From Quercus robur (taxonomy: Eukaryota > Streptophyta > Magnoliopsida > Fagales > Fagaceae), in NCBI RefSeq assembly GCF_932294415.1, contig NC_065536.1, forward strand, positions 12,513,974-12,577,973: a DNA stretch of 64,000 bases. Direction: 5' to 3'. Shown here piece after piece: positions 8,946-36,834 of the stretch. The position numbers and the translations under genes are program-made. The notes below the pieces were generated by a model, which was not told the origin of the DNA, ran no database searches, and saw only the letters and a list, made by a program, of their open reading frames with translations. How positions within the stretch are numbered: position 1 is the first letter of the stretch; each line of letters begins with the position of its first letter.

Positions 8946-9098
8946 ACTTTGAGAAGATAACTTTTCTTTTTCCTTTTCTTCTTTTAATAAAGTAGGATTG
9001 AAATTGAATGCTTTGATCGATGATTTTCGTTGCTAAATAACCCTAAAATTCTAAGTATTTCGTTAGTTGTCCTGTTACGAAACAATTTGTAATAATAG

Positions 9099-9253
9099 CA
9101 TCTCGAGTTTCTTAAACTCGAGATCCAATTTAAAAATCGAGCTTTTAAGACTCGTTTTTGTTGTTTTTCAGTTGCTGACATGGCGAAAGTTTCCACTTGG
9201 ATAGCAAGTTTATAAAACTCGATTTTGGAAATCGAGTTTTATAAACTCGCTTT
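9099..9253. repeat. CTCGAG-type palindrome array (left)
   Basis: There are three imperfect palindromes: ATCTCGAGTTTCTTAAACTCGAGAT at about 9100-9124 (CTCGAG on both arms), a shorter one at about 9137-9155, and a 47-bp one at about 9207-9253 centred on CTCGATTTTGGAAATCGAG. Read in reverse complement, about 9030-9160 aligns by eye with 36520-36620, including flanking non-palindromic sequence (AAATTGTTT and ACTAAC). The two arrays are therefore inverted copies and are candidate element termini. Confidence 0.75.
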
Positions 9254-9289
9254 CGCTTTAACGCTTTTTTCCCTTACCACTTAAAACAA

Positions 9290-9529
9290 TCTACAGAGAC
9301 CCGTTCAAAATCTCTCAATCTCAGACACCGCTCTCTCAAACTCTCTCAAACTCTTCCCCTCACTGTGGAAATTTCAAAATCAACTCACTCTCTCAAACTC
9401 TGTCAAACTCGCCGTGCGGAAGGTGGTTCTCCCATTGAGACTCAGCCACCGAAACTGAGTTCTGCTCCCATTGACAGTGAGGCACTCAAAGTCAGTACTG
9501 CTCCCATTGAACCACCGTGCGCCTAAGGT
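9290..9529 (+). promoter_or_regulatory. Possible non-coding first exon (5' leader) of the PMD gene
   Basis: Just inside the left palindrome array lies a CT-rich stretch (repeated CTCTCAAACTCT). It ends in CCTAAG|GTACTC at 9529/9530, a usable splice donor. Plant genes of this type often have a CT-rich leader with a long 5' intron. The next plausible exon is the first coding exon at 13551, which would leave a 4-kb intron. This is inference: no transcript evidence is visible and a closer leader is possible. Confidence 0.35.
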
Positions 9530-9761
9530 ACTCTCTCTTTCTCGAACTCCAATCTTAGGTTTTGGAGTTTCATGATGTTTCCTATTTCGTTTTTCAATTT
9601 CAGATCTTTCTGGGTTTTGGTTGTTCATGTCATTTCAGTGAATGCATGTATATTATTCTGTTTGGTTGTTTGGGAAATTAATGTTAGCAAAACTGATTGA
9701 GCATTTGATTGGGTTTCATTAGTTTAAAAAGTGTTAATATCTGGATTACATTGATATTTAA

Positions 9762-9846
9762 TCTAGTTTGTTGGGGTTTCATTTGATTTGTTTGTGGGTT
9801 TTGTTTGATTTGTTTGTGGGTTTTGTTTGATTTGTTTGTGTATCTT
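9762..9846 (+). repeat. Short tandem repeat (22-bp unit)
   Basis: About three copies of GGGTTTTGTTTGATTTGTTTGT follow each other within the presumed PMD 5' intron. This is a minor satellite with no visible function. Confidence 0.6.
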
Positions 9847-10726
9847 GTTTCATGGTATTTTCACTGATTTGTTTTGGGTTTGTTTTAATTTTCTGATTGT
9901 ATTTTCGTTTGTGGGTTTGTAAAGCAAATTATGGGTTTGATGAAATGGTTCTATGAACGGTGTATGAGTTGTGAAGTAATAAGTGAGAATATTCATTTGA
10001 AAAAAATGAGAACTTACACCTGAAAAATAATGGAAGGAAATGGAGTCAACAAAACAATACATCTAAGAATTTTTTTTTATTGGGTTAAAAATACTCAAAT
10101 CAAGCCAAGGAACGAAAGATAAAAAAATATTAGTTGAAGAAGAGGATTATACCTGTGTTTGGAGTGTTTGGACCAAGAGCGATTCTGTGTTTTGCATCTC
10201 AGGATGAACCGGAACCTATGGATCTTATATAACATTGGTCCACAAATCTGTTTTCTGCAATTACATTTTTAATTTTAATTTATATTTACTTATCTGGGGG
10301 AAGGGAGGGAAAAAAAGAAGAAGAGGACGAGGATTATAAAAAAGTCTTTTTCAATTCTTAACCACCCAAAGGTTAGGAACCTCATGTGTAACTAAACATT
10401 AAGAAGTTGATGCATTCGGGTGATTGTGCAGAGGTAACACTAAGCTGAAATTAGAAGTTAGAAGTTAGAAGTTAGAAGTTAGCTGTCCACACTTACTGCA
10501 CCACCAACAACATAAAATTTAGAAGTCAAACACCATCAAAGAAATCTTAAAAAGTGGGAAACAGAGTCACACCTGCAGACTTTTGAAAATAAAGTTTGAT
10601 AACTACAGATCCAATGCTACAAAAACAAAAGCAGAAAGTTATAAATCTTAAATATGTATGATAAGATTGTACAAAAAAATAATAGTAGACAATATAATTA
10701 GCCCAATAAACTCAAAGAGATGGTAC

Positions 10727-10795
10727 CAGAAGAGAATGTAGAGCTGTTTCAGCTTGATTTCCAAGGAAATACTGCAGAGCCATAGCAGCATGCTC
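10727..10795 (-). pseudogene. Isolated 23-codon exon of an unrecognised host gene
   Basis: On the minus strand a 69-bp open segment, framed by a TTGCAG acceptor and a CTG|GTACC donor, encodes EHAAMALQYFLGNQAETALH plus SLL. It is alanine- and leucine-rich and helix-like. I do not recognise the family. No adjoining exon is evident, so it is probably a captured fragment like the HYP1-type exon 850 bp away. Confidence 0.35.
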
Positions 10796-11560
10796 CTGCA
10801 ATAGGAAAATGCTAAAATAAGTAGGAAGTTTTAACCACCTGAACTAGGAGATGATTGTCAAGATTTTTCTAACATCATTGTATCTGCAAAGAAAAGAAAT
10901 AACTGAAATACATTTTCACTGGCCTACATAATCACTGAAAACATTTTCTTGATCTATATAAATATTTAAAGTCCATTATGCTCCAACCCTTCATCTGAAA
11001 CTCTTTATTCCGCCCCCTACTCCACATATTTTAAATACAATGCTATAACTCACTACTTCATTCGGGAAAGAATTAAAACTATATTGGACACACACACACA
11101 CTATAAGTATCTATCAAAATGGGCATAGGGGACAAAAACTTGGCAAGATTCAAAAGGTAGGGTAGTCGGATTACCCGTAAAGTAACCAGAGTTGTAAAAT
11201 GTTACCACTATCCTTTCTTTTTCTCTTTCTTTGATAAGTATCTCTCTTTTCTTTTCTTGACAAATTAAGAAATTTTATTAGAACAGAAACGAATTCAGCA
11301 AATAGCATGTAATTTCTACATCCTATAAAGTGATCACATTTGAAAATTTAAAAAAGCAATAAAATCCAAGAAAAAAACACAACAGATTATTGCCTAAAGC
11401 ATGCAGCCAGTTTTATCATTATCCCTTCATATATTAGCCAAAAAGGCATAGCCAGATGGGTGGAAATATATTAAGAACTATCTGTCAAACAAAAAATCCA
11501 TAAATAGAAAATATCATTCTTCTGTAAGTTTCACTTTCTGGAATTATTTGTGCTAGCCTT

Positions 11561-11606
<46 letters not shown>

Positions 11607-11645
11607 CTAAGGTAGAATTTTCAAAGGTGGAAAATTAGTCTCACC

Positions 11646-11921
11646 TGTGCTGGGACCGCAACAGCTAGCCTTGCAGGAATATTCTTGGGATCAAGGATGA
11701 GGGAAAGCTGATATAAAACTGATCCAGAAAATACCGTTGCAAAGAAAATGTTCCATATTGTAAACCAAAGGACTTTGTTACATGCACTCTTTTCTATATC
11801 ACTATGAGAAACATATCCTTGAATAGATGAAAGCAACTCCATTATAGGAGGCACTATTTTCAGAAACAACTGAAGAATAAGACTGGGAAGGTATCCTGTA
11901 ACTACTTCACTAACAAATGTT
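11646..11921 (-). pseudogene. Lone exon of an OSCA/HYP1-type (DUF221/RSN1_7TM) channel
   Basis: This 276-bp segment has a GGGCAG acceptor and a CACAG|GTGAG donor and is open in one frame. It begins [20 protein letters not shown] and continues with [36 protein letters not shown] and AVPAQ. These are hallmarks of the transmembrane core of CSC1-like/HYP1 hyperosmolality-gated cation channels. It covers two to three membrane segments of a protein that normally has about 700 residues. I find no neighbouring exons on either side. It lies antisense within the presumed PMD 5' intron, so it is a captured or duplicated fragment, not a gene. Confidence 0.8.
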
Positions 11922-13551
11922 CTGCCCAAAAAAAATCATAAAATTAGTACTCTGTCACCAATAGATTAAATAAAACAGGCATTAGATTTTCTCATGAAAA
12001 CATTATAATAATAACAAATTAGATTCCTCTTGATTTTTAAGTTGCATATGGGCAATTAATAATATCACCAAATCACCCCAAATATTCAATAAAATATCAG
12101 CCAAAACCACTGCAGTTTTCATCCCCCATGCCCCATGCCCAATGGTCATTTATTTTGCATGACAAAGATTATGCAATATGATAAGTTGATATATCATTCA
12201 ATGATAACTAAAACTTAAGACTTGAAACTCTCATGCTCTTCAATCTTACCAATCTCATAGCAAGCTAAATAAGTGCAATCTCCTCCTTTAAATAACACAT
12301 TAGAGATAATAAAATGAAGTTAAGCCTCTCAAGGACAGACATACAAGGGGGCACCATTTCAATGTTTGTGTACCTGAGCCCCCCAGAACTAATTACACCG
12401 ACAAAAAATTTCTCCCATCCCCTTGAAATTTTCTGTATCAAGACTGCTTCAGTTTGACATAAGATGCTACAGACACCTAAACAAAGTCCCTTTACAGGAT
12501 GTATAATTTATATAACGAAGCAGCTTTACTCAAATTTTCATCAAAGGTGCCTTCTCTCAGTGTTGTAGGGTTAAGCAGAACCAGTAAAGAAGTGTGCATT
12601 AAATTTTAGAAAGTGGAATGTAGACCATGCAGTTCAGTAAAGAGCCTTCATTTATCAAAATAATATACCCAGCCACTCTATTTAGTGATTCTGAACTCAA
12701 ATTTAATCTGAATGACAATATTTATTATTTAAAAAGTACACAGACTGGGAACTCTGAGTAGATATCCTTAATTAATAAGAGGAAGCATTACATGGGAGAA
12801 GTACAATCATACGCCTATGAGGAAGAGTCCTGTAGAATTAAGAAAGTCATTTACTAATTACATAGAAAGTCCGGCCAACTCTCAAGCTGTCTCTTTACAG
12901 CAATAGGGCTTAGATAGGGCCTTCATTGTTGTTTTGACTACTTTAGTGAACATAAGATCAAGGGGGAATCAAGTAACCAAGTTCCTTTCAGTCAATGGCA
13001 AAAGCCAGTAAGCCACGTACAACTAAAGCTAAAATGTACTACAAAAACCAGATTCTTATTTGTGTGGTGGCAACACCATAGATATGCAAAATTCAACTAT
13101 TTTAGACGTCTAAATATCCATTTATGGACTTCAATCTAGTTATTACAATTCAATAAGGGGAAGAATCATTCTGAACCATTGTTCAACCAATTGATAAGTG
13201 GCAGGAAACATGATACTCACACAGTCCATATATGTTCAACCAATTGATAAATAAGCATGCTAAAAGTTCATAACCAACACAAAGCAGAATTAATGAAAGT
13301 AGTCATTTTATTTGGTACAGAATTCAATTTCTTTTAATTGTAAAAGTTTACAAAATTATTCCAACTCCAAAAAATTCATTATGTTTTTTTCTAACTTACC
13401 AATTCTAATTTCTTTGATTGCGTAAACATCATCGATTTGCATGTTTTTTGGTATGATTGCGAACTTACGTTTTTTGAAGAAAATTCTATTTTACAGTAGC
13501 ACTCCTTTGCCCCTACACTATTAATGATCTCACAGTTGCATTGTTTGCAGT

Positions 13552-16509
13552 ATGGAGCCTCGGATTGATGAGGAGTTAGAGGTCTTGGACCCCGGTCCGC
13601 GTGAGAGGTCATTGTTGACACGACAGCCATATCATCGATCAGAGGCCATTTGGAATGGCGAGGTGAAATTTCTAGTTCTAACAACTGCTTTAATATTTAC
13701 GTTGTCTTTGATTGTTAGTTAGCAAGTTCTTTCAATGTTGTATTTCTAGTTCTAACAACCGCTATAATTTTGATCGATTTTGTAGGACTCGGGCCCACTT
13801 ACGTGCCGTGGTCGCACTAAGGAGATGGCAAACATTCAGATGCAAGATAATCGAGTCATTGATATTATCAAATTGCTAAGGCTAGAAGGATTGTTTAGAG
13901 CCCCTTCAAGAGAGATAGACAATTGCCTAATATCGGCCCTAGTTGAGCGATGGCGGCCGGAGACTCATTCTTTCCATCTTCCACATGGTGAGATGACAAT
14001 CACCCTAGAAGATGTGGAGGTAATTTTTGGACTTCCGATAGACGGTGACGTCTTGGTTGGGCCGACTGCTGTGGTGGATGATGGGGGTTGGAGGCGATTG
14101 TGTACGGAGTTGCTAGGTTTTAGTCCGCCGAATGACAATAAAACATTGGTGGGGCAAAGAATTCTCATCAGCCGACTTGTTGAGGCCGTTGCAGCGCCAT
14201 TGCCTCATGACGCAACGGAGATGCAGATACACCGGTATGCCCGGTGCTATATGTTAGCGCTAATAGGGGACAAACTTTTCATGGACAAGTCAGGAGATAG
14301 GGTGCATTTGATGTTCCTGGACTTCATGCGTAACCTTCGTGATCCGCCACATTATAGCTGGGGTAGTGGTTGCCTGGCCTGGTTATATAGGGAGTTGTGT
14401 CGGGCAAGCGAGAAAGGGGCATCGCAGATTGGTGGGGCGTGCACCTTGGTCCAGTATTGGGCATGGGCAAGGTTGCCATTCTTGTGCCCGAGGATAGAGC
14501 CCCCACCTGGATGTGATTATGGCCCATGGCCATATGCTCCACTTGCATTTAAGTAAGTCTTTTCTTGATACCAAGTGTGTTCTGCAATGTACATTTTTGT
14601 GTAACTAAATTGTATTATTGTTCTTATGTTTTTTGCTTGCTTGTAATTGTAGGTGGGTGCGGGTGCCAAGCCCGAAGAGTAGACCATCCAGCATGGCCTT
14701 GGTCCACTATCGCGAGCTATTAGTTACAATGCAGCCAGAGCAGGTAATAATATTCAAAAAATTTGTTTGGTTATGATCATTTTCGTTAATAATATGATTG
14801 CTTCATCCTTTAACATATCTTTTGTTATAATTTTAGTTTTTTTACCCTTTATATATGTATTTTCCCTTGTTTCACATTTGAAGATGCTATGATAATTGTT
14901 TTTTTTTTTTCTATCGTAGATTGTGTGGCAGCCATACGAGGCACACTTCAGCCACCTTCCTGAGTTCTGCGTTGCAGGGAGGGATATGTGGACAGCAAGG
15001 GTGCCGCTTCTGTGTTTTTGCATAGTAGAGAGACACCACCCAGACCGTGTCCTTCGACAGTTTGGCTTGGCGCAGGAGCGGCCTGACCATGTTGTCTACG
15101 ATGATAGGCTGCATAAAATCGACTTACGTGGGAAGGTGGAAAGGAATTGGAGGGAGGAGCATGGACCGTATATCATTTCTTGGGAAATGAGACGACAACA
15201 AGTTTGTCGTGCACCTCCTCAGATTGGTGAGATGCCCCGCAATCATGCCTATTACGTCTGGTACCGTCCGGTCACTCGAAAGTATGTCGACCGCAACAGC
15301 GCTAAATTAGATATTATGGTAATGTGTTCTACTTACATTTGATTGCCTACTTCGTTTTACTTGAGTACATGTATGAACATAAAATCAATTTCTATGAATT
15401 TCTCAGCAAATCTGGTTTGCTTTGACTGACATGTAATGAAATAGTTTTTGATACATATAGTATTCTAATAGAACTGTTAGTTTTGAGTAGATTCATAAGT
15501 CTTATATTATTCATTCATTAATTGATACATAAATGATGTTGGTTCTTTCTCCGTTTCAGATTCAAAGCCATTTAGCGCTGTTGGCGATGCTTCCTGAAGG
15601 CAGCCAAGCTCACAACCATGTCCGGCGTATCCTAAATAATGTGGCTGGCCTTGGTGGTGGTCCTGCAGTAAATGAGCATGCAAACAATGGGGATGAGACT
15701 GAACTAGCAGCTGCTGCAACCCCAAGCACAAGTGCAGCACCCGTAAGTACACCGACCCGTGGTCATCGTGCTACTACAAGCCCAAGCACAAGCGCAGCTA
15801 GGGGTCGTCTTCGGCCTGCTACAGCAACCCCAAGCACAAGTGCAGTTAGGGGCCGTGGTTGGCGTGCAACAACCCCTCGGGTTGTAACTACTCTTGAGAT
15901 GCCTCCACCCATCCCGCAAGCATCTCTTCAACATGAGGTCCCTTCACCCATCCCATATGTATCTCCTCAGCCCGAGGTCCCTTCACCCAGCCCACCTTCG
16001 CAGCCCAATTTCGATGTCAGTATTGACCAAAATGTGACCCCTCCTATACTCCCCGAGACACCCTCATACCCACACACTGGCTCTAGTGCACCCACTCCTG
16101 GCCTCTACATAGAGCAGGATTACCCACCTACCACATCCTCATCTGACCCTCTAGGATCTCCGGTTGGGATTGACACTGTAGAGCCACATATTGATGTACC
16201 GGACCTTAATCCCCCTCATCAGGCCTCACCCCCACGAGGTAGACCGCAACGCAGTAGAAGAGCACCCACGTGTGGGACAGGTGGACACAAAATAGGACAC
16301 CGAGGCCCCGCTATGGTATGATAACTTTAATTTGAATGTAATAATATATTTTCTACTTCACTTTACTCTTACCATTATGGAGAATATTGATTGCATGCAT
16401 GTAATGGAATTTGCAGCACGATGATGACCCTAAGGTTGATGCCCCGCAGCCTCCTCCCCCACACAAACATTACACGAGGGCTAAAAAACACAAAATTGGT
16501 GAACCTTGA
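13552..16509 (+). CDS. Plant mobile domain (PMD; MAIN-like) protein, five coding exons, 738 residues
   Basis: The exons are 13552-13662, 13786-14552, 14653-14743, 14920-15318, 15560-16315 and 16417-16509; the second and third share a split codon, and all junctions are GT-AG with matching phase. The start Met gives MEPRIDEELEVLDPGPRERS, and HRSEAIWNGE and DSGPLTCRGR follow, the usual N-terminus of MAIN-like proteins. The PMD core includes LLRLEGLFRAP, ALVERWRPETHSFHLP, GEMTITLEDVEVIFGLPIDG, WGSGCLAWLYRELCRAS and LVQYWAWARLPFL. The tail from about residue 410 is Pro/Ser/Thr-rich with repeated ATPSTSA units and a basic end. PMD genes occur both as host genes (MAIN, MAIL1) and as cargo of Mutator and gypsy elements. 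Here the gene sits just inside a CTCGAG array and is intact, so recent mobility is plausible. The biochemical function is unknown. Confidence 0.9.
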
Positions 16510-16861
16510 GTAAGTGCCTTGAAAATTATGTTTCATACTTTACATATTAGAAACTTTAGGATTTTAATTGACTTTCAATACATTACCATTGTAGTAAATG
16601 TTATTTTCCCTCATTTGATGATGTATGCAAATTTCTATTTATGTGTTATTCCAGGGTGGAAGTTACATTTTTGAGTTTGAAAATTTCTTAGATCTTCAAG
16701 TTTGTCGAGAGTTTGTGGGTAAGTCTCAACTATTATGCACATTACTTATTTCAAGCTTGTTGACCTATAATTATGTGTTGTCAATCTAGTTCAAAGGTTT
16801 AGACATTCTATTAGGTCAGTGTAGTTGATATGGATCTTCCCCTTTGTAAATGCATGAAGCA

Positions 16862-16919
16862 GAATAGACATTCTGTTTGGTAGTGGTCCACCTCTTGAGT
16901 TTGTAGTTTAAGGCATCTT
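16862..16919 (+). repeat. 58-bp perfect direct repeat, left copy
   Basis: The sequence starts GAATAGACATTCTGTTTGGT and ends TTTAAGGCATCTT. It is identical, base for base, to 21270-21327. This left copy is the 3' end of an intron plus the first 7 bases of the first VPS8 exon (AAG|GCATCTT), so it is native VPS8 sequence. Confidence 0.95.
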
Positions 16920-19900
16920 CATTGAGTGATATTACTGAACTTGTGGAAGAGAGAATTGGGCAATTGGAGAGCAGGAGGATTAGTAAGAGAGCGGAGAAGA
17001 AATCCTGGGCTGCTTCTATGAAGCCATTGGAGTTAGCTGAGGAGCTTGAGAAGAAGCATGCTTCTACTGGTTTGCATTGGGAAGAGGGTGCAGCTGCTCA
17101 GCCAATGAGGCTTGAGGGCGTACGAAGAGGATCAACCACATTAGGATACTTTGATCTTGATGCGGATAATGCTATTACAAGGACCATTTCTTCTCAGGCA
17201 TTCAGGAGAGATCATGGTTCCCCTCAAGCTTTGGCTGTTCATACTAATTATATTGCAATTGGAATGTCAAAAGGGGTCATTCTTGTTGTGCCCAGTAAAT
17301 ATTCCGGTTATAATGCTGACCACATGGATCCAAAGGTTACTTTTGCATCAATCTGCTTATATTGCTCTTACTTGTTAGCCTTTCATGTTCCTTCAGGATT
17401 CTATGTTTCTATATGTTATTTGTTCATCTTTTGGTTGAAACTTGAATAGATTCCAGGAAATATATTTTGGGTGTAATTAGAATCAAGGGAGAATGTTGTG
17501 CATGTGCCCTTTAAAATAATAGTCAATTCCTGGTGTCATCTTTGCTGAATTGCTTAAGTATCAACTTAATTGCTTATTTCAATCTCTAAAATGCTCCAAT
17601 GAATTTCACACAAAACAGCAGTACATACTTGATTTTGTACAGGATGACTTCCATACACAAATAACTTGATATTATTGAAAAGAAACACAATGTATCAGCT
17701 TTAAAAATTAAAAAAGAAAAACCTTTGGTGTGCGTACTTAGTATGAGTATATTCTGTAAGGATGACTTATATACATAAATATAATGTGCATACTTAGCAT
17801 GAGTGTGTTGGTACTTCCTCAACAAAGTTCTTATTCAGATATGCCCTTAGTATATGGTTATCCGTTAAGATACCATTGATTGGTAATATCTAAATTTCTT
17901 CTGTTACAGAAATCGAACATGTTAAGTGAGGAATTTGGCTTTTTATGGTAATTTCAGTATGCAAACATCTGGATGCTTAATTAAATTGTGAAGCTTCTAA
18001 GTACATTTGCTTTTGCTATGAGCCACGTTGTAGTTACGACAGAAATAACTTTACTCAATAAACCATGCTGTTTATGTTCCAGATGTCGATGCTCGGTCTG
18101 CAAGGGGATAGGTCTCATGCCCCTGTAACTTCCATGCGCTTTAATCAGCAAGGGGACCTGCTCTTAGCTGGTTATGGTGATGGTCATATAACTGTTTGGG
18201 ATGTGCAGAGATCATCATCAGCAAAAGTTATTACTGGAGAGCATACAGCACCAGTTGTACATACGTTATTTCTGGGGCAGGATTCTCAGGTTACTCGTCA
18301 ATTTAAAGCAGTTACTGGTGATAGTAAGGGTCTCGTTCTGTTGCATGCTTTCTCAGTTGTTCCCTTGCTCAATAGGTTCTCCATCAAAACCCAGGTAAAA
18401 CGTTAGTATGCATCAATATGTGATTTATGATTGTGGCACTATGTATAATATGCTTGTGAGTTGACATCATCTCCAAACTAATGATCATATTGTTACTTGA
18501 AATAGTGTCTTCTTGATGGACAAAAAACGGGAATTGTGCTATCAGCTTCACCGGTCCTTTTTGATGAATTCTCTGGAGGTGCTTCCCTGTCCTCTCAGGG
18601 AAACAATGCAGTTTCATCCAGCAGTCTTGGTAGTATGATGGGAGGTGTAGTAGGTGGAGATGCTGGCTGGAAACTCTTTAATGAAGGCTCTTCTTTAGCT
18701 GAAGAAGGTGTGGTCATATTTGTCACCCATCAAACTGCTCTGGTGGTATGAAGCCCTCAAATGATTGCACAAATTCCATGTACCTTTTGTCTTGTGAATT
18801 GATGTTGTTCTTCTTAGTGGTTATATCTTGTTCAGAATGTGTTAAAGCCACATTTGCATGTTACAGGTAAGGCTTACTCCTACTTTGGAAGTCTATTCGC
18901 AGCTTTCTAAGCCAGATGGGGTTCAAGAGGGTTCTATGCCTTATACTGCGTGGAAATGCATGACACAATCACGCAGTTTGCCTAGTGGTATGCATTGAGT
19001 GAATTTTGGGCATTTATGTTGAGATATTTCATCTTTCTAAGATATGAATTTGTTACAGAAAACGTACCTGTAGAAGCATCAGAGAGAGTCTACTTGCTCG
19101 CAATTGCTTGGGACCGAAAAGTTCAGGTTGCAAAGTTAATCAAATTAGAGCTAAAAGTATATGGGAAATGGTCTCTTGACAATGCAGCTATAGGTGTGGC
19201 TTGGTTGGATGATCAGGTACGTATTTAGTTATTCATATATTGTTGATTTGTCTTTTGTTGTATTTAAATAGTGTTATTTAGGTTGGGTGCCTAGTAAATA
19301 ATTGTAAATGCTTTGCATGTAATGAGATTTTTGTACTTGACCAGATACTGGTTGTTCTTACATCAACTGGACAACTCTGTCTGTTTGCTAAGGATGGAAC
19401 TATGATTCACCAAACAAGTTTTTCTCTGGATGGTTATGGTGGAGATGATCTTGTTGCATACCATACCCACTTTATTAATATCTATGGAAATCCTGAGAAA
19501 GCTTTTCACAATTGCATAGCTGTAAGAGGAGCTTCAGTATACATCCTTGGTCCTATGCATCTTGCTGTTTCTCGCCTTCTCCCATGGAAGGAACAGATTC
19601 AGGTTCTGTGGAAAGCGGGTGATTGGATGGGTGCACTGAACATGTCAATGACACTTTATGATGGCCAGGCGCATGGTGTTATTGACCTTCCTAGAACCTT
19701 GGATGCTGTACAGGAGGCCATAATGCCCTACCTTGTGGAGTTGCTTTTGTCATATGTAGATGAAGTATTTTCTTATATTTTGGTGGCATTTTGCAACCAA
19801 GTTGAGAAAATGGAACCACTGGACAACCCAAATAGTAGAAGCAGTTCTGTGCACTCTGAAATAAAAGAGCAATACACTTGTGTTGGTGGAGTTGCTGTGG

Positions 19901-20987: not shown

Positions 20988-21114
20988 GTATGTATAATGT
21001 GTTCCTTGTATTCTTATTCATTGAATATGGAAGATTTTTTAATATCATGTTCTCATTCTAGTTTGCTTCTCTTCTATGAATGTTGTCATGTCAATATTTA
21101 AAAATTGATTGGAT

Positions 21115-24438: not shown

Positions 24439-24452
24439 TGTTCTTAAAATGT

Positions 24453-24494
<42 letters not shown>

Positions 24495-27285: not shown

Positions 27286-27288
27286 AAT

Positions 27289-28059: not shown

Positions 28060-28154
28060 GTATGGTTGATTGGCTTTTAAAATTAATTTCTTTTAATAAT
28101 GCGTTTTGAAAATGTTAAGAGTGAGAATTAGCAGTTGCACATATAAATCGTGCC

Positions 28155-28275
28155 TTGAATCAAGCCTTGCTCTAGTGGTCTGAATTAGCAGTTGCACTAG
28201 TGGTCAAGCCTTGTTGCAATGACAAGTGCCTTTCACCAAAAGAGGTTGTGGGTTCAACCTTAACCACTGAAAAAC
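28155..28275 (+). mobile_element. Possible SINE-like tRNA-derived segment
   Basis: TTGCTCTAGTGGT (A-box-like) occurs near 28168, its partner GCACTAGTGGTCAAGCCTTG follows, and GGTTGTGGGTTCAACCTTAACCAC (B-box-like) is near 28245. The internal duplication of AATTAGCAGTTGCAC (28127 and 28183) suggests a rearranged copy. No tail or target duplication is defined. Confidence 0.35.
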
Positions 28276-28426
28276 CCCACAAATATAACTAAGTTTTGTG
28301 CACTTAGTACTACGACGTTGCAGCCAGTTGTATTCCTTCATTGAGAAACATAGTCGTTTTAGGTAAGTATTAGATTCAATGTTTTTAAAAAAAAAACTAT
28401 TATGACATACATATTCAAAATTTCAA

Positions 28427-28671
28427 TTGCATTGGGTTTTGATTAGAATGATTGCGTTATTTGTAGGCACAGATATCACTGTTATATCAAACCTCTGGAA
28501 GCATTGGAAGGTGAAGAGTCCAGGAAAAGAAGGCAGACCGCTTCTTCATCATGCAGGGCTTGTTCAAGCTTTATCAGATCATGTTCTACTTTTTCCTACG
28601 ATATATTTCCCATCGTCTGATTGCGCTCTAACATACCCTTATGGAAGAAAAATGTCTTCAATGATTGGAAT
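28427..28671 (+). other. Open stretch of unknown origin inside the inverted-repeat spacer
   Basis: One frame reads GTDITVISNLWKHWKVKSPG, then GLVQALSDHVLLFPTIYFPS without stops for about 80 codons. I do not recognise it. It could be another captured exon or chance. Confidence 0.2.
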
Positions 28672-29010
28672 TATTTATAATAAAAACAAAATATGAAATG
28701 TAAAAACCTTGTTAGTATACCGCATAGATTCTCCAATGACACTTTAAGCTTGTTGGCCTTTGCTTCTGCTTCATTCATTCTGACTTGTAGCTTTTCCAGC
28801 AACATCTTCTTCTCTTGTACCTCCTCTATGTATTTTCTAGAAAATACTCCAACGAATATGTGTGTGTGTCCACACAATAATCAATGGAATTATGACTACT
28901 GCTGAACGAACTGAGATTTCTTGATGAAGCTCGTCAACATTCGATGCAGAAGATGCATTTGCTTCAGCACCGTATGCATGAGCGCCAAAACATGCATCGA
29001 CCAGGGAAAA
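28672..29010 (-). repeat. Inverted repeat, right arm (339 bp)
   Basis: This is the reverse complement of 26947-27285 with a few substitutions (for example ATTCGTTGG for ATTCCTTGG, and AGAAAATACATAGAGGAGG for AGAAAATCCAAAGAGGATG). The two arms face each other across 1386 bp containing the TyrRS pseudogene. A transcript across the locus could fold into a long near-perfect hairpin. Confidence 0.85.
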
Positions 29011-29608
29011 ATTGATAAAGACATAAATAATGTAAGTTGGATTTACATTTGATAAAGACATACATAATGAATGATAGATTTTTGTTTTTTGCATTATATG
29101 GGAAATGTGATAAAATTATTCTGTTTGTGATTTGTATTAGGTACCATCATGACGATTTCAAAGGACCGAGTAAAGCCATCCCCAATGCCTGACAGTTGGA
29201 AGTTAAAAGGGTGGATAACTTTCTTTTCCGTGCCATTTCTTAGTGTGATTGCAAATTTTGTATAGAGCGAACAATGTATTGAGATGTGGATATTTAAGCC
29301 TTGATTGGCAGGAATTTTATGTTTTGTATAGAGAGAACTATGTAGTTGATACATTTTTTGGATCAAAACCTTGTGTCTCTATTTGGTTATTTGGAGTTAA
29401 GATCATTTCACTATATTGTGAAAAGCACTCATTTGGTGTTATGGAGTGGAATAGTTTATTCAATGCAATGCATCTATAGGTTACTCATATTTAATAGTTT
29501 ATTCAGAAGTTTTTCCCTTAAACAGTTATAAAAAGCTCATTTGTAGAGAAGAACAACAATTGTGACCTTTAAAATTTTTAAATACATAAAATAAACAAAT
29601 TTAAATTT
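29011..29608. other. Spacer before the right-hand palindrome satellite
   Basis: There is no supported gene. A short internal duplication (TTTTGTATAGAGCGAACAATGTA near 29255 and TTTTGTATAGAGAGAACTATGTA near 29323) is visible. Confidence 0.45.
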
Positions 29609-30184
29609 CCAGTGGAACTCGAGTCTATGAAACTCGAGTTCCACTGGTGCCTCTCTGACTAAACAGAGCAAAACGGAGGAAAAAAAATTCCAGTGGAACT
29701 CGAGTCTATAAAACTCGCGAACCATCTGGAACTCGAGTTTCATAGACTCGAGTTCCACTGGAAATTTTTTTTTTCCCCCTTGGTTTTGCTCTGTTTACTC
29801 AGAGAGGCCCAATAGGGTGCTCTGTTTTTTCCAGTGGAACTCGAGTTTCATAGACTCGAGTTCCACTGGAAAAAATTTTTCCCTTGGTTTTGCTCTGTTT
29901 ACTCAGAGAGGCCCAATAGGATGCTCTGTTTTTTCCAGTGGAACTCGAGTTTCACTGGAAAAATTTTTTTCTACGTTTTGCTCTGTTTACTCAGAGAGGT
30001 CCAAGAGGCTTGCTCTGTTTTCCTCTGTTTTTCCCAGTGGAACTCGAGTTTTATAGACTCGAGTTCCAGTAGGAAATTTTTTCTCCTGGTTTTGCTCTGT
30101 TTACTCAGAGAGGTCCAAGAGGCTTGCTCTGTTTTCCTCTGTTTTTTCCAGTAGAACTCGAGTTTCATAGACTCGAGTTCTATG
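29609..30184. repeat. Satellite of seven CTCGAG palindromes
   Basis: Palindromes of up to 39 bp with arms CCAGTGGAACTCGAG sit at about 29609-29647, 29690-29728, 29726-29761, 29831-29869, 29935-29959 (shortened), 30034-30070 and 30148-30184. They are separated by a conserved linker containing TTTTGCTCTGTTTACTCAGA and GAGGYCCAA. The period is about 100-115 bp. The linker is inverted in the first unit, so orientation flips between about 29690 and 29760. It lies about 0.6 kb beyond the 3' end of the Mutator transposase gene. Confidence 0.9.
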
Positions 30185-30816
30185 GAAATTTTTTTTTTTT
30201 TTTGTTTTGCTCTGTTTTCCTCTGCTCATTCCAGGAATCATTCACTGGGGAATTTTTTCTTTCATTTTTCCTGGTTATGCAGACAAACCAGAAACTGAAA
30301 CGTGTGCAAGCACCAGGTGAGAAGCAAAGATAAACAAACTACGAATATAATCCATAAACCCTCATTTAGAGGCAAAGAAGCTAAGAATGTAAATACACGT
30401 ACATTACATCAAACGAAACTACTGAAACTTCTACGCTCTCTGTATAAACATGGTTTTACAATGCAAAATGCAGTTACATCGCAAGAAAAGGCATTCTCAA
30501 TATCAACATCCTAAACATGCCCAACCACGCTTAATTTGCAGTTCTAACCATACTATTGAAATCACAATCTTCATAGGCATACATTCAATAGAGATTTACA
30601 AGTACATTCAACAAAAACCAAAAAGTTCACATAGACCCAATACAACGTAGTCACTTTTCCTAACATCGGCTGTCCACACAACAAAAACATCGTCCTTGGA
30701 AGCATGCCTGAAAAACGTAGAGTAATCACATTAGGGGAAAAGATAGTAAACATTAGGTCAACATAGAATGAACAACAAATATTTAACCGATGTATAAGTA
30801 TTTGCCATCTACCTAC
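30185..30816. other. 3' flank of the transposase gene
   Basis: This is AT-rich DNA between the satellite and the transposase stop codon. It probably holds the transposase 3' UTR or internal element sequence. No other gene is visible. Confidence 0.45.
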
Positions 30817-33606
30817 CTAGTGTGGAACATGACCGCTTGTGGAAGCGCCACGGGACTGCGGACATTTTCTGCGGTTATGCCCGGAAGCATGACACAGTCC
30901 ACATGTCTGCTTGGACTGACTCTCTATCAAATCTGCATCCTCCCTCCGCCATCCCGGTTCTCGAACCTTATTCCTCACTCCATCCATCTCATTCCTTATT
31001 CTCGACTTCACTGGTCGACCTTTGGCCCGCAACAATGCTGGATTAGGCAACCACTTTGGCCCTATGGGATCCCTCCACAAAGCCATCGACTTAGGAACCA
31101 CAAATGCATGCTCATAAGTGTTAATGGCATTGTTCAAACCATAACACGGGTGAATAAATGTGGTCGAATCAATATTTAAATAGTCACATACTCTGATTGC
31201 ATGTGAACACGGGATCCCTATGTTTTGCCATTTCCCACAACTGCATGTTCTTTCCTGTAACCGAACTTCATAACTGTGGTTTCCCCCTCCTGCACTACAC
31301 GTGTTGATTTGGGTAACTATTTGAAATATCAGCTCTTCATTGCTAAATGGCTTGAGATAATGTTTCTCAGATTTGCTCTTATTCTCATCCCACTTGGAGA
31401 AGGCATATTTACTCCATTTCTTACCCTCTGAGAACTCAAAAAGGTATTCTTTGCGACGGTCGTGGAAATAACTGACAAGTTTGTTCCAAGTGAACTCAAC
31501 CAACGCGGCAATAGGAAGGCCCCGTGCACCTTTCAATACACCATTGAAGCACTCTGATATATTGGTTGTCATTGCCCCAAAACGTCTCCCACCATCATGT
31601 GACTGGGTCCACATATCCACTGACTCGCCCATTAGGTATGTGTATGGAAGATAATCTTGATTCTTTTCCTTGCCATCCTTCCCCATCAACATCTTCTTAT
31701 TTCTAATGGCCTCAATTTCCGCCTGCTTAATGGTCTCCATTATGGAGGTAAATTTCACTGCCTGACTAGCATATCCAGCTTTCAACGCCGCTGACTTCAG
31801 AGTCGAGTTCTGAAAATGTGTGTTAAAGTTGCTAGCAACATGTCGAAGGCAATATCTATGAAATACCAGTGCTCTTCCATCATCCCTTCTAGGCCAGTTT
31901 GCAATGGCGTTTTTGATACCGAGATGTCGGTCAGAAATTATGCAAATGCCTTCGTTAGGTATCACGCGGCCAATCGCATCTCTGAGACATTGTAAAAACC
32001 ACCTCCAACTAGACCCTGACTCAGAATCCACAATAGCAAAGGCAAGAGGGAATACCTTGTTGTTAGCGTCGGTTGCCATTGCAACCAACAACTTTCCCTG
32101 ATATTTACCATACAGATGAGTCCCATCAATACTGATAACCGGCTTGCAATATTTGAATCCATCAATGCTTGGACCGAAAGACCAAAACACATAATTCAAA
32201 AATACTGTGTCATCTTCACAGGTGGATGTGGTACGATAGAACACCTGGGTAGTCGGATCCTGATCAATATATGCCATTAGCAACTTTTGCAACCTTTGAT
32301 AAGACTCTTCCCAATTCCCAAACATCTTCTCAATCGCCTTTTGTTTCGCATCCCACACCTTGTAGTAAGAAGGCTTTTGTCCCTCATATTTCGACTCTAT
32401 CATAGATCTGAGATGCTTAATTGGGGTAGTGTGATCCTCACATAACTTCTTAAGGATGTCATCTGCAATAAATTTACAACTCATCATTCTACCATCATTT
32501 CGCACCCCAGTCCGTATACACGTGTGAGGACCCTTGTACACGGTGACTATCCATAGATTGTGGAACTTGGGCTTCTTGACTACGCAGACATACCACGTGC
32601 ATGACTCATCAACGCATTTCGCACAAAGTTTTGTCGTGGTTGACCTACTGATCAAAAAATGTTTGTTTTCCTTGAGGGCACACTTTGTTAATACGCGTTG
32701 CACCTCCATTTTATTGGCAAAAGTCAAGCCTTTGCACAAATTCATCCCCTCAATCCAACTAGACACAAATGGTGTCTCAATATGTGAAGGATCAACAAAA
32801 TTTTCCCAAGTATTTTCATAAAATGACAAGGCAGGTGGTGAGTACACAGGGATTGTGTCCGTAATGTTTTGGACACTAAGAACATTGTATGCATCAGGTT
32901 GACTACCGTCCAGTGTCTCATCGTCATCAATGTCCCTCTCAAAGTCCCTAAAGTCCCCTTGTTCAATCCTGTCTTCAATCTCATCTCTATCGCCAAAATC
33001 TTCACCATTAATGGCAATATTTTCATCAACATAGTCATCATCATCATCCTGATCCTCGTCCTCATCATCATAATCATCATCATTCTCATCCTCATCCTCA
33101 TCCTCATGATCATCATCATCATCATCGGCATGAACATCTTCATCGGCATGAACATCAGCATGCTCTACATGTGTAAAATACTGGTATTGAGCATCTGGAA
33201 CTGTAACTTGTAAACTTGTTTGTGTTTGTTGGATTTCCTCAATACCAACTTCTGCACGTGGCTCCAACTGTATGTACAACTCAATGTTAGTTACTTCAGG
33301 TATTCTCTCCAACTTGTCAAACATGATCTTCACATGTTTGTCTGATTCTATCGCCATGTACTTGTAATTAATCCGGTGCTTCAGGATTTCATTTGGCATG
33401 CGATAAGTAATGTGTATGTTGTGCACAGCAGGGTTCTCACACAACTCTTCCATAACCATCATCTTCAATTGATCAAGGGTCTTCAACCTACCATCAATTT
33501 GGGTATAATAGGTCTTTATACCCGGCCCTTCAAATGGCAATCCCTTGTTCGCATTGGCATTCTTCAACGAACCACCGTGGTATATGATTATATCAATTTC
33601 AGGCAT
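30817..33606 (-). CDS. Mutator-like (MULE) transposase, single-exon, 929 residues, apparently intact
   Basis: A DDE transposase that cuts and pastes elements by their termini. Residues 1-115 form an N-terminal fold beginning MPEIDIIIYHGGS (possibly PB1-like). Residues 151-195 are an extreme Asp/Glu tract. Residues 280-360 are a MuDR-type zinc-binding region (KCVDESCTWYV and HTC). The MULE catalytic core has D494 (ISIDGTHLYGKYQG), D559 (IISDRHLGIKNAI), the FHRYCLRH signature (C586, H589) and probable E685 (TNISECFN). The SWIM finger is C788-C790-C800-H802, and the C-terminal zinc knuckle is C902-C905-H910-C915. No stops, frameshifts or introns are needed. Length and domain order are those of full-length plant MULE transposases. 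Neighbouring CTCGAG arrays may be its element termini. A domesticated (MUSTANG-like) gene is an alternative, but the repeat-rich context favours a transposon. Confidence 0.93.
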   Translation of the reverse strand: MPEIDIIIYHGGSLKNANANKGLPFEGPGIKTYYTQIDGRLKTLDQLKMMVMEELCENPAVHNIHITYRMPNEILKHRINYKYMAIESDKHVKIMFDKLERIPEVTNIELYIQLEPRAEVGIEEIQQTQTSLQVTVPDAQYQYFTHVEHADVHADEDVHADDDDDDHEDEDEDENDDDYDDEDEDQDDDDDYVDENIAINGEDFGDRDEIEDRIEQGDFRDFERDIDDDETLDGSQPDAYNVLSVQNITDTIPVYSPPALSFYENTWENFVDPSHIETPFVSSWIEGMNLCKGLTFANKMEVQRVLTKCALKENKHFLISRSTTTKLCAKCVDESCTWYVCVVKKPKFHNLWIVTVYKGPHTCIRTGVRNDGRMMSCKFIADDILKKLCEDHTTPIKHLRSMIESKYEGQKPSYYKVWDAKQKAIEKMFGNWEESYQRLQKLLMAYIDQDPTTQVFYRTTSTCEDDTVFLNYVFWSFGPSIDGFKYCKPVISIDGTHLYGKYQGKLLVAMATDANNKVFPLAFAIVDSESGSSWRWFLQCLRDAIGRVIPNEGICIISDRHLGIKNAIANWPRRDDGRALVFHRYCLRHVASNFNTHFQNSTLKSAALKAGYASQAVKFTSIMETIKQAEIEAIRNKKMLMGKDGKEKNQDYLPYTYLMGESVDMWTQSHDGGRRFGAMTTNISECFNGVLKGARGLPIAALVEFTWNKLVSYFHDRRKEYLFEFSEGKKWSKYAFSKWDENKSKSEKHYLKPFSNEELIFQIVTQINTCSAGGGNHSYEVRLQERTCSCGKWQNIGIPCSHAIRVCDYLNIDSTTFIHPCYGLNNAINTYEHAFVVPKSMALWRDPIGPKWLPNPALLRAKGRPVKSRIRNEMDGVRNKVREPGWRREDADLIESQSKQTCGLCHASGHNRRKCPQSRGASTSGHVPH

Positions 33607-34559
33607 TGTGAACCTGTTACAGTCAAGTTACTATGTTAGTTAACAAATCCATCTATCCTTCCTATATACAAGAGGCTAATTACAGCAACATGGTATGAGA
33701 GGTAAACACATGTAAAGCAAAAGATAATTGCAAACGCAATTTTTTTTAACACATACAAAATTGCAAAACATAATGGGGGACTAAATAATTGCAAAAGATA
33801 TATCATTGTAACACAAACACAGCCACATGGATGTAGTTTCCAGTGTCATGTAATACTTGCATTTTTTTCCCTTTACATTCTATGAGGAGCTGTAACATTT
33901 TCTTTGATCTTTTAAGATTCTCAATCATAATTTTATTACCTGTTACTAACTTATCATAATCAAGGGCTGTTACATTGGAAGGCTTGGTTTATCTTCATTT
34001 TTTCATGAGGATAATTTTCTTCTTCTTTATCATTATAGATGAGAGAAGACTGTAACTGCCCCTCTCTAGGTTACTATTACAGGCTTAAAAGGTTAGAAAA
34101 AGGTTCCCTAAGCAATTGTTTTTAGAGAATAGCACAAATACTCAAGTGCCAGATGAACCCTTCTGTGTCACAGGCTCAAGGACACATCCAAGAATTCAAT
34201 TTAGGGAAATTGTGGAAAGATGTGTTTCATCTCTCAATAAATTGATCAAGAGGGTAGACTGTATCTTTTCACCCACAGTTTGTACCATAGTGATGCAGCC
34301 TGAATAAGGCAGCAAAGATGACGTGTTTGCTGTAAACAGCAGATAAAGGCTATAAGGCAGAAAAGGGAGTCAGTAACCCCAGAAATAAGATTAATTTTCT
34401 GTCAAAAATAGCCAGTTTTCTTCAGATTATTACTTATTTATAAGAGAAGCAATGCCTGACTAGTCAAAGACACATAATAAATGCTAGACAGCTGACAATA
34501 CATTTAGAGATTGGAGCATCAAGTGGAATTATGCTGATGTAGGATACAAGAGTCATAGA
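33607..34559. other. 5' flank of the transposase gene
   Basis: This is AT-rich DNA that should include the transposase promoter and leader. I recognise no specific signal. No other gene is visible. Confidence 0.45.
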
Positions 34560-35364
34560 TAAACTTGAAGAGGCAGTAAGTGATTTTTCAGTTTATTCTT
34601 GATTTCAAAATGTGGTTGATGGTTTTGAATGGACTTTTTTTGGAGTGTATGATCCTAATGCAGATGCAAATAGATAGCAGCTTTGGGAAGAATGGGCAAG
34701 GGTATATAGTTGGTTGGTGCATAGGGGAGGCTTTCAACATAATTCCTTTTCCAAGCAAAAGGATGAGCTTTAAGAACAATGGTAAGGATGTGGCATTTTT
34801 CTGGAGTTTATTTCAGAACATAGCCTAATGGACTTACCATTGGAGGAAGGTGTTTAAACTTGGTCAAACGATCATGGTCACCCATCAATGCCCAGGTTGG
34901 ACAAATGTTTGATCTCACTAGCTTTGGAAGAACAATTTCACTATTTGAATCAGAGATTTCTTCAAAGATCATATTCAAACTGTTTTCCCATGTTACTTGA
35001 TGGTAATGATATCAACAAGGGCAAGGGCTTATTTACATTTGAAAATATGCGGTTAAGAACTAAGGGCTTTGTGGATAAAGTGAGAAATTGGTGGGGGAGT
35101 TATCACTACCATGGGTCTCTTAGTTATATATTGGCTTCGAAACTCAACTCCTTGGAAGACAATATGAGAAATAGGAGTAAGGAGACTTTTGGAGATGTGA
35201 CAGTATGGAAGAAACATTTATTGGTGCTAAATGAATGGAGGAAGAGGGATGCCTGATTGTTGAAGTTTCTTTTATTCCAAAAAATATCGGGGCTTCAGAT
35301 GCTAAAGATTATAGGCCGATCAGCCTTATTGGTGGCGTCTATAAGATTGTGGCTAAAGTGCTAA
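34560..35364 (+). mobile_element. L1-type LINE remnant, endonuclease end to start of RT
   Basis: Pieces on the plus strand are AFNIIPFPSKRM (from the GDFNVIRFPSE-type endonuclease motif), HPSMPRLDKCLISLALEEQF, then RLRTKGFVDKVRNWWGSYHY and a linker. The last piece is ISFIPKNIGASDAKDYRPIS plus LIGGVYKIVAKVL, the start of the plant L1 reverse transcriptase. It is broken by stops and frame changes and lacks most of the RT. It inserted upstream of the Mutator transposase, on the side toward the 36.3 kb palindrome array. Confidence 0.85.
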
Positions 35365-35420
35365 CTACATCAATTACCTTAAATACCTTAAATAAATGCC
35401 TACATCAATTACCTTAAATA
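35365..35420. repeat. 21-bp direct repeat at a junction between two retroelement fragments
   Basis: CTACATCAATTACCTTAAAT(A) occurs at 35365-35385 and 35400-35420, exactly where the LINE piece ends and a Copia gag fossil begins. It may be a footprint of the joining event. Confidence 0.7.
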
Positions 35421-35770
35421 AATTAAATGGTTTAAATTATTTAGTTTGGACACACGCTATGATTTGAAGCAACATAAGCGATATTGAGAGGAATATATGA
35501 TTACTACATTACTGTCTGCCTTAGATTCTGATCTACATGGTTTTAAAGAGCAGATTCTTTCTAGTGAAACCCTCACTTCAGCTGCCAATGTTAATTCTCA
35601 TTATTGTGCTCATGCTTAGGCCAAGGTTCTATTGAGACAACCATAGTCTTTTGCTTTAGTTTCTAGCATTGGAGGTTGTAATAGCTTCTAGTGGTAATGG
35701 TTGTAATGGTGGATGTGGTGACAACAAGTGCTCATTTGGTGGTATGAATTGTACTAAACGTTATTGTTGG
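35421..35770 (+). mobile_element. Copia-type LTR retroelement fossil (gag part only)
   Basis: The plus strand has the start of a Copia gag (LNGLNYLVWT-like), a middle gag helix region and a Gly/Cys-rich zinc-knuckle-like end. It is a small broken fragment with several breaks and no LTRs, pol or flanking duplications visible. Confidence 0.6.
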
Positions 35771-36250
35771 GTGAATTAGTAATAAATCAAAGAAAATATA
35801 ACAAATAATATATAGCTCAAATGACATGCAAGCCAATAAAAACATGGAATTGAAATCAACAACAAAAAGATACTACAAGAAGAACATCTTATATTAGGAA
35901 AAAACATGGAGTCATTGGAAAACCCATAAAGTCATTGGGAAGTTCTCTTAGTGGCAAAACCCATACACAACTAATACCCAACTACAATAACAATCAAATC
36001 AAAAAACCCATACCTGAAATATGAAATTCTTGAGAGGGAAGAGCAGTGAGAGAGGCAATGTGGTGAGTGAGAGTGAGAGGTGTGAGAGTTAGTGAGGCTA
36101 AGTGTATGGGTGAGAGTTGAGGATGCTTTGTTTTTGGGTGAGAGTTTGAAGATACTGAGTGTGGACTGAATAATCTATTCTCAGGAAATACCTTTCAAAA
36201 CTACTGTTATCTGTTTTTGACTGTGGACGGAATAGAGTTGTAAAATAGTT
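35771..36250. other. Gene-less stretch before the palindrome array
   Basis: AT-rich DNA followed by a purine-rich GAGTGAGAGG block near 36040-36120, resembling in reverse complement the CT-rich leader inside the left array at 9.3 kb. It could be the matching end-internal region of a related element. No gene is visible. Confidence 0.4.
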
Positions 36251-36580
36251 CCACCAGAACTCGAGTCTTATAGACTCGAGTTCTGTTCAAAGTTAACTAC
36301 ATTGTTTGGATAAGTAAATCTCGAGTCTTATAGACTCGGTTTGCGCCACGAAAAACTCGAGTCTATAAGACTCGAGATCCCTTGAAATTATTATTATTCT
36401 TATAATTAAATCTCGAGTCTTATAGACTCGGTTTGTGCCAAGCAAAACTCGAGTCTTTAAGACTCGAGATCCGCGTGGCAAATTTTGCCACCTTAGCAGT
36501 GCAGAACTAATGGAAAGCGAGTTTATGAGACTCGGTTTTTAAGTTGAATCTCGAGTTTCAAAAACTCGAGATGTTAGTTT
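36251..36580. repeat. CTCGAG palindrome array (right)
   Basis: Palindromes GAACTCGAGTCTTATAGACT... (36257-36283) and related units near 36318, 36355, 36411, 36445, 36518 and 36548-36572 contain CTCGAGTCTTATAGACTCG or close variants. The block AAATCTCGAGTCTTATAGAC with GGTTTGYGCCA is itself duplicated. The outer part (36520-36620) matches the reverse complement of 9030-9160. This places it as a possible right terminus to the left array at 9.1 kb. Confidence 0.85.
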
Positions 36581-36834
36581 TCTAAATTGTTTGAAAACGT
36601 GCCTAACTAACTAATTTGAATGGTTGAACGAATCTGATTTGCACAATACCTCTTTGATCGATGTCTTAAAGGTTGAAAATTTCCCTATGGATACAGGCTA
36701 AATGTGAAATGGCCCAATAAAATCGTTGATATGACCCGGTAGAAATTTCAGTATTCATTGTGGCCCATGAACGAATTTACAATGAAGGGAACGGAGCCAA
36801 TTTTCCGAACAATAAAAATAGAATTTGAAAAATG

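Follow-up and report, generated by a model that had tools for sequence, protein, structure and literature searches.

Does the block of some 27.6 kb that lies between two inverted arrays of CTCGAG palindromes in Quercus robur represent one composite Mutator-like element (MULE), or several related elements that happen to lie together? The block belongs to a stretch of 64,000 nucleotides of contig NC_065536.1, referred to here as the window, and a preliminary description placed it at 9020-36680, proposing a single composite element and naming nested elements as the simpler rival. The composite block stands, with its exact limits moved slightly inside, to 9022 and 36652. This insertion of 27,631 bp (window 9022-36652) is very probably one giant, potentially autonomous MULE, and its family appears to move in units that measure up to some 30 kb.

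Limits of the element and its empty site

The features that define the limits, together with an internal array, are the following:
9012-9021, no strand: left copy of the target-site duplication TTTGATCGAT, single copy at the empty site
9022-9281, plus strand: left terminal inverted repeat, beginning GATTTTCGTTGC, about 63% identical to the right end
29603-30217, no strand: palindrome array (CTCGAGT) inside the element and not one of its ends
36393-36652, minus strand: right terminal inverted repeat, containing CTCGAGT palindromes; sequence of its outer end GAGGTATTGTGC
36653-36662, no strand: right copy of the target-site duplication TTTGATCGAT, perfect over 10 bp

Long terminal inverted repeats, which characterise MULEs, are present over about 260 bp; they are imperfect and score far above shuffled sequences. 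A tip-anchored alignment of both ends gave 175 identical columns out of 278 (63%) across 260 bp. The first 210 bp score 124, against a maximum of 12 among 1000 dinucleotide shuffles. In a self-comparison, 9080-9226 matched the reverse complement of the right end (36592-36445) at 73% over 150 columns (E 2.7e-14), and the observed score of the non-palindromic first 79 bp alone was reached by 2/2000 shuffles, which bears out the earlier observation that the arrays are homologous in reverse complement, non-palindromic bases included. The block contains 24 of the 26 CTCGAG sites of the window, arranged in three arrays.

The 10-bp target duplication was found where it had been expected, outside the homology and within the anticipated 9-11 bp. 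When the window flanks are joined, they match C3:12871976-12872471 (98%, 493/494 bases) with an uninterrupted junction, and at this empty site the whole block is absent and one target copy remains. The joined flanks also match C3:30149690-30150148 at 86%, the junction sequence having been read at C3:12871976-12872471 only. An empty site had been sought in related haplotypes; the one found is not an allele but a paralogous stretch of the same contig, about 0.32 Mb downstream, and the TNL region that flanks the block is itself duplicated.

A family of paired ends

Genome copies sharing both ends, for which a search had been proposed, do exist: end pairs of this type are tabulated at 24 places and lie 4.8-41 kb apart, one of them spanning 41 kb. 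The definition of MULEs includes a target-site duplication of 8-11 bp (as given in PMC6446971). Beside the 10 bp of the window, perfect duplications of 9-11 bp occur at 15/24 end pairs, and duplications of 9 bp or more with no more than one mismatch at 21/24, compared with 0/552 non-cognate pairings. The other three pairs are C1:11.2 and C39:6.7, each with a match of 8/10, and C37:19.1, where no target duplication was seen. Among the 15 pairs over 18 kb, the one-mismatch duplication is present in 12/15, a near-complete transposase match in 12/15, and both in 10/15; C37:60.3 has no transposase match, that of C37:1.3 is partial and that of C1:11.2 is split.

Most genome searches scored 40 candidates, so that counts are lower bounds and absence weighs less than presence. 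The right-end loci comprised L009-L037 (n=29; L038 overlaps L026), with L029, L030, L034, L035 and L037 unpaired, and the left-end loci L039-L068 (n=30), with L062-L067 unpaired. Full end-to-end sequence was compared for two large copies, the window and C2:93.03; the lengths of the others were taken from where their ends lie, and insertions of later date may be counted in them. Older copies carry extra sequence near 35775 and have middle cargo of their own, which amounts to about 6 kb in C1:24.2.

The sister copy at C2:93.03 Mb measures 24.1 kb, lies at a different site with its own target duplication, TAAAAAGCC, and is collinear with the window except for deletions, with 145 differences in 23,199 compared columns. 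It contains the PMD gene, the VPS8 pieces, the TyrRS region and the transposase in the same order as the window. Because this sister carries all four with a duplication of its own, the reading of the block as two or more nested or adjacent MULEs, whose unrelated ends face each other by chance, is rejected as very improbable, even though the third CTCGAGT array and a 349-bp inverted repeat (26938-29019) do lie inside the block. Judged on the pairing of the outer end types at 24 places, most with credible duplications, and on the absence of the whole block from the empty site, the block is not a composite of two MULEs; moreover, comparison with the outer ends gives the internal array a score of 38-44, whereas the outer ends score 104 against each other. 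An alternative in which the internal array (29.6-30.2 kb) forms the left end of a transposase element of 7 kb was discarded as well, because this array is far less like the outer ends than these are like each other and C2:93.03 keeps the outer pair. Neither of the findings named beforehand as contrary was seen, namely the 9.1-kb end paired differently near the PMD gene, or host fragments without the ends in an orthologous haplotype. The 10-bp duplication, the ends paired genome-wide and the empty site uphold one composite Mutator element.

Element genes and captured host segments

Inside the ends, the following features were recognised:
10022-10472, no strand: segment A, first part; source C40:4177697-4178852, 97-98%
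10480-10851, no strand: segment B; source C35:11987975-11988344, 99%
10849-13183, minus strand: segment D, with an OSCA/HYP1 (RSN1_7TM) exon at 11624-11935; source C3:64954411-64956733, 99%
13196-13286, no strand: remainder of segment A, separated by later captures
13786-16321, plus strand: PMD (plant mobile domain) gene, by Pfam; exon-like frames 13786-14556, 14920-15342 and possibly 15533-16321
16859-16919, no strand: 61-bp element sequence, left of the VPS8 capture
16918-21258, plus strand: segment F, a VPS8 fragment with introns; closest source among the matches listed C39:540146-544352, 97.8-99.2%
21267-21327, no strand: 61-bp duplication, right of the VPS8 capture
21526-23689, no strand: segment C; source C1:4653576-4657538, about 98%
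23759-25074, plus strand: segment E; source C4:75862925-75865743, 96-99%, with a nad1-like stretch in the source
26938-29019, no strand: cargo of older date, with TyrRS exons enclosed by a 349-bp inverted repeat (95%)
30817-33606, minus strand: MULE transposase, 929-aa open frame with DBD_Tnp_Mut, MULE and SWIM domains, by Pfam
33842-35367, no strand: segment G; source C41:36820526-36822052, 98%

The intact transposase of the preliminary description is confirmed by this open frame, which contains the MULE-type domain PF10551 (E 5.5e-17, 62.5 bits against a cut-off of 27.6) in addition to DBD_Tnp_Mut and SWIM. With a dN/dS of 0.36, frame controls having been run, the frame looks constrained. 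Among the relatives used for comparison, C5:60.3 has one stop in the transposase and one in PMD.

The PMD gene, regarded earlier as cargo, is indeed present, with Pfam matches of 1.5e-49 and 1.2e-18, but its role has to be revised. It has at least 42 genome matches, occurs in 15/15 end pairs over 18 kb (16 large copies counting the window) and also matches in a diverged subfamily at 82-89%. Its dN/dS is 0.25 for frames 1-2, 1.25 for the third frame (no constraint) and 0.54 for all three together; exons 1-2 look constrained, here too with frame controls. Since PMD recurs in all large pairs and in the diverged subfamily, with a dN/dS of 0.25, it is probably a gene of the element, and its capture as cargo is unlikely.

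About 12.6 kb of the 27.6 kb derives from seven host segments, which match their best source loci, among the matches listed, at 96-99% on seven chromosomes. The VPS8, TyrRS and HYP1-type channel fragments described earlier were all recovered, by Pfam for VPS8, by RSN1_7TM (6.2e-25) for the channel exon and by solved TyrRS chains (best E 2.2e-30) for TyrRS, whose exons lie at 27283-27507 with a weaker second stretch near 27762-27926. The genome matches listed did not include the source gene of TyrRS, and two open frames of segment C gave no Pfam match. Every one of the seven segments recurs at another site in one or more further elements, and the cargo was therefore already aboard when the unit moved.

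As judged from the copies compared, this cargo goes back to no fewer than seven separate captures rather than to a single one. Across 21 elements the distribution of segments is nested, with 0/21 segment pairs in conflict, a pattern free of conflict in 0/5000 shuffles; 19/21 pairs could be ordered, B/C and D/E being the two without order. This first matrix left out three tabulated pairs (C2:97.8, C37:22.5, C38:44.6) and C2:95.6, and including these four, two of which were scored as unknown, left the nested result the same. One repair event can bring together clustered fragments of several chromosomes, and a gathering of all host segments at once in a single complex event could in principle give such a block; however, it is highly unlikely here, as intermediates survive (A only; A+B+C; then G; then D+E; then F) and sister elements show the sites of C, E and F as they were before capture.

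The junctions examined show 2-6-bp microhomology, filler or the 61-bp duplication, which fits gap repair: the VPS8 segment has the 61-bp duplication plus filler, segment E has 3- and 4-bp microhomology with 512 bp replaced, and one edge of segment C has 6-bp microhomology. The element's own MULE transposase would catalyse transposition at the palindrome-rich ends; a break within the element, repaired by copying an unlinked locus through template switching or gap filling, would yield a capture, and the enlarged element would then transpose anew. PMD may aid the element, perhaps against silencing.

Spread of the large copies by segmental duplication or ectopic recombination rather than as whole units is very improbable, for although the flanking TNL region is itself duplicated, as the empty-site paralog shows, the 16 bases outside the ends vary from copy to copy, 21/24 pairs have their own edge duplication, and 26/28 distinct non-window right-end loci lose their homology to the window at 36652-36660, the other two, L035 and L037, at 36621.

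Significance and comparison with known systems

Cut-and-paste transposition is thought to be less efficient above several kb, and Pack-MULEs are described as small and dependent on other elements (in the account of PMC6431247). The ten insertions over 18 kb with both a credible duplication and a near-complete transposase match widen the size range of MULEs. Since intermediates are kept in sister copies, the family constitutes a stepwise record of gene capture, with pre-capture sites, source loci and junctions, which makes the mechanism of gene capture by MULEs directly testable; the conserved stand-alone PMD is a test case for the proposed use of PMD proteins by transposons against host silencing. 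The oak MULE may be autonomous and may still be active, as judged from sequence-level constraint and low divergence. It is possible, though doubtful, that it represents an autonomous giant lineage enlarged through successive repair events that copy unlinked loci and in part overwrite earlier sequence, with the seven captures being datable; its size would be tolerated because of a conserved stand-alone PMD acting as an accessory, counter-silencing factor, and PMD would have joined this MULE independently of the fusions in grasses and Amborella.

Like Pack-MULEs, the oak element has MULE ends around intron-bearing host gene fragments (VPS8, OSCA/HYP1 and others with source loci), and its junction microhomology and filler resemble the gap-filling model outlined for Pack-TIRs (PMC8277862). 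However, Pack-MULEs are non-autonomous, whereas the oak element carries a transposase with a 929-aa open frame; those of Jiang et al. 2004, as summarised in a review of giant transposons, include none above a 7-kb element, most being of 1-2 kb (PMC6431247). The large Mutavine elements of grapevine, of which Mutavine-1 has 17.7 kb and Mutavine-18 16.2 kb, share a MuDR-type transposase, inverted ends, multiple copies and, in some families, 9-bp duplications (as reported in PMC2528002), while the oak units reach 24-30 kb and have a separate PMD gene and graded host captures. The Abermu MULEs of barley and its relatives combine a transposase with an oppositely oriented extra ORF and mostly 9-bp duplications; the barley element has 8.2 kb and the Brachypodium coordinates extend to about 15 kb, against 24-30 kb in oak, and the passages on Abermu give the origin of the extra ORF as unknown and do not describe graded host captures (PMC9168764). 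The association of PMD with a MULE is itself shared with previously described PMD-carrying MULEs; in grasses and Amborella, PMD-C is fused to the transposase, according to PMC5418596, whereas in oak PMD (plus strand) and the transposase (minus strand) are separate genes on opposite strands.

Boundaries, target site and paired ends of the insertion

The block at 9022-36652 (27,631 bp) is a Mutator element, notable for its size and for its preserved record of stepwise capture. The preliminary description had proposed that this 27.6-kb block may be one composite Mutator element carrying host gene pieces; the observation is real and the interpretation correct in substance, as borne out by a target duplication, an empty site and paired ends elsewhere in the genome. 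The limits were set by flank comparison:

9012-9021 and 36653-36662: target-site duplication, TTTGATCGAT
9022: element start, GATTTTCG
36652: element end

The duplication lies outside the end homology on both sides, where the preliminary description had suggested looking for it. Homology to the window ends at 36652-36660 in 26 of 28 distinct right-end copies outside the window, and at 36621 in the other two (L035 and L037). A query joining the two flanks matched the same contig, C3, at 12871976-12872471 (493 of 494 bases, 98%) and at 30149690-30150148 (all 494 bases, 86%). At the former, the junction reads through the target once, with no gap. The flanking region has a second copy about 0.32 Mb downstream, where this locus lies; it is a paralogous empty site within the duplicated flank, not an allele. 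The proposed check for an empty site found a single uninterrupted target, although not an allelic one. By eye, the left flank (8700-9021) may resemble a TNL first exon immediately outside the insertion.

In the self-comparison of the window, 9080-9226 aligned with the reverse complement 36592-36445 (150 columns, 73%, E 2.7e-14), and alignment from the outer tips over 260 bp gave 175 identical columns of 278. Over its first 210 bp this alignment scored 124, against a maximum of 12 in 1000 dinucleotide shuffles; when it was confined to the outermost 79 bp, which are non-palindromic, 2 of 2000 shuffles matched or exceeded its score. The ends are therefore alike beyond their CTCGAG palindromes, in agreement with the proposed homology of the 9.1-kb array to the reverse-complemented 36.5-kb array, non-palindromic bases included. 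A third CTCGAGT array lies within the element (29603-30217); of the 26 CTCGAG sites in the window, 24 fall in one of these three arrays.

Other copies sharing both ends were sought by right-end and left-end genome searches, pairing partners on one contig and matching strand. The 24 tabulated pairs span 4,782-41,256 bp, 15 of them exceeding 18 kb. Perfect 9-11-bp target duplications occur at 15/24; when a single mismatch is allowed across 9 bp or more, the count is 21/24 cognate pairs versus 0/552 non-cognate combinations, the exceptions being C1:11.2 and C39:6.7 (8/10 each) and C37:19.1 (no duplication). The tabulation excludes C2:95.6 (left end incomplete), right ends lacking a tabulated left end at C6:25.9 (two), C41:13.1 and C4:82.0 (one each), and five partnerless left-end loci (L063-L067). 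At C37:19102263-19104984 (L026/L038), the copy lacking a duplication, two ends of the right type face each other across about 74 bp, and a PMD piece follows the second.

The large units read end to end were the window and C2:93027332-93051434, a 24.1-kb sister with its own target duplication, TAAAAAGCC. Its order (left end, PMD, VPS8, TyrRS region, transposase, right end) is that of the window, with deletions, and the two differ at 145 of 23,199 compared columns (0.625%). The 6.1-kb derivative at C4:40.2 (target duplication CGTATTACGC) fuses window 13461 to 34949 through a short filler copying nearby bases. Several older copies (e.g. L013, L015-L021) carry about 215 extra bp, edged by a 7-bp repeat, at window ~35772-35778; the five youngest copies, which carry segment D, lack it, as if by a single deletion.

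Transposase and PMD genes

30817-33606, minus strand: transposase open frame, 929 aa, with DBD_Tnp_Mut, MULE and SWIM domains

The transposase frame is likewise open in the C2:93 sister (99.5% to the window's). Among the 15 pairs exceeding 18 kb, 12 show a near-complete match, frame openness having been read in the window and C2:93; the gene is split in C1:11.2, partial in C37:1.3 and without a match in C37:60.3. Computed against one diverged member (C5:60.3 Mb), transposase dN/dS was 0.36, with shifted-frame controls of 1.32 and 1.57; the C5:60.3 relatives compared have one stop in the transposase and one in the second PMD frame. A second subfamily (C5:60.29-60.31 Mb, C40:23.14, C2:59.63, C39:50.90, C4:49.26, C38:4.05, C38:49.25), with transposase matches of 87-90%, also pairs PMD and transposase, with only ~3.5-9 kb between the two matches.

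The plant mobile domain (PMD) gene, recognised by Pfam at E 1.5e-49 and 1.2e-18, has 42 genome matches. They include every one of the 15 pairs exceeding 18 kb, together with C2:95.6, at 91-100%, besides a diverged set mostly at 82-89%. Against the same C5:60.3 member, frames 1 and 2 gave dN/dS of 0.20 and 0.45 (0.25 jointly; shifted-frame controls 0.99-2.40). The third frame is perhaps non-coding as drawn, since its value is 1.25 while one shifted frame there gives 0.57; the three frames together give 0.54. Given this spread and the dN/dS of frames 1-2, PMD, initially regarded as cargo, is best read as a gene belonging to the element.

Captured host segments and the order of capture

The best source locus of each of the seven segments lies outside the transposon family:

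Segment A: C40:4.178 Mb, 97-98% (weaker neighbour C40:4.189 Mb)
Segment B: C35:11.988 Mb, 99%
Segment C: C1:4.654-4.658 Mb, about 98%
Segment D, with OSCA/HYP1 exon: C3:64.95 Mb, 99%
Segment E: C4:75.863-75.866 Mb, 96-99%
Segment F, VPS8: closest C39:0.540-0.544 Mb, 97.8-99.2%; second homologous locus C37:49.956 Mb, 95.9-97.7%
Segment G: C41:36.82 Mb, 98%

These loci are the putative donors of segments totalling, by coordinates, 12,596 of 27,631 bp (46%). The segment E source contains a nad1-like frame (E 2.1e-7), which points to a probable nuclear copy of mitochondrial DNA there. The two VPS8-like loci (L073 on C39, 0.54 Mb; L074 on C37, 49.96 Mb) are 81-95% homologous outside the captured stretch, and L073 lacks ~141-145 bp still present in the element. 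TyrRS lies within an older stretch common to older copies, and genome searches did not find its source. A 349-bp inverted repeat (95%; 26938-27286 and 28671-29019) flanks the TyrRS fragment; older copies show matches to it too.

At the VPS8 site, the C2:94.0 sister has uninterrupted element sequence, the pre-capture state. The window's left junction, read against the C37 locus, shows a 2-bp overlap; the right, against the C39 locus, has a short filler copying nearby bases and then a 61-bp stretch of element sequence for the second time. At the E site, 512 bp kept in the C3:18.7 sister are replaced by source DNA in the window, with 3 and 4 shared bases at the edges. Segment C shares 6 bp at its left edge with the pre-capture state in C1:24.2, and the window's segment C lacks source sequence that C3:18.7 still borders. 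Captures may have arisen through break repair with template switching, with which the overlaps, filler, 61-bp duplication and replacement are compatible.

Segment presence over 21 elements is nested: 0/21 segment pairs conflict, and 0/5000 shuffles were conflict-free, with deleted arms coded as unknown and a shuffle that ignores relatedness among elements. After four elements were added (two as unknown), conflict was still absent and 19/21 pairs were ordered, giving A, then B and C in either order, then G, then D and E in either order, then F. The cargo was already aboard when the window copy moved, since every segment recurs in one or more other elements inserted elsewhere.

Comparison with known elements

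PMD was originally described from a rice MULE; grasses and Amborella have PMD-C fused to MULE transposases, and an anti-silencing role has been proposed for PMD (PMC5418596, PMC8616336). Grapevine MULEs reach 17.7 kb (PMC2528002), and a giant-transposon review gives at most 7 kb for the first Pack-MULE survey (PMC6431247). No MULE measuring 24-30 kb and bearing PMD as a separate gene appeared among the matches listed in open-licence literature. As to mechanism, the junction traits fit the gap-filling model of Pack-TIRs, as outlined in PMC8277862.
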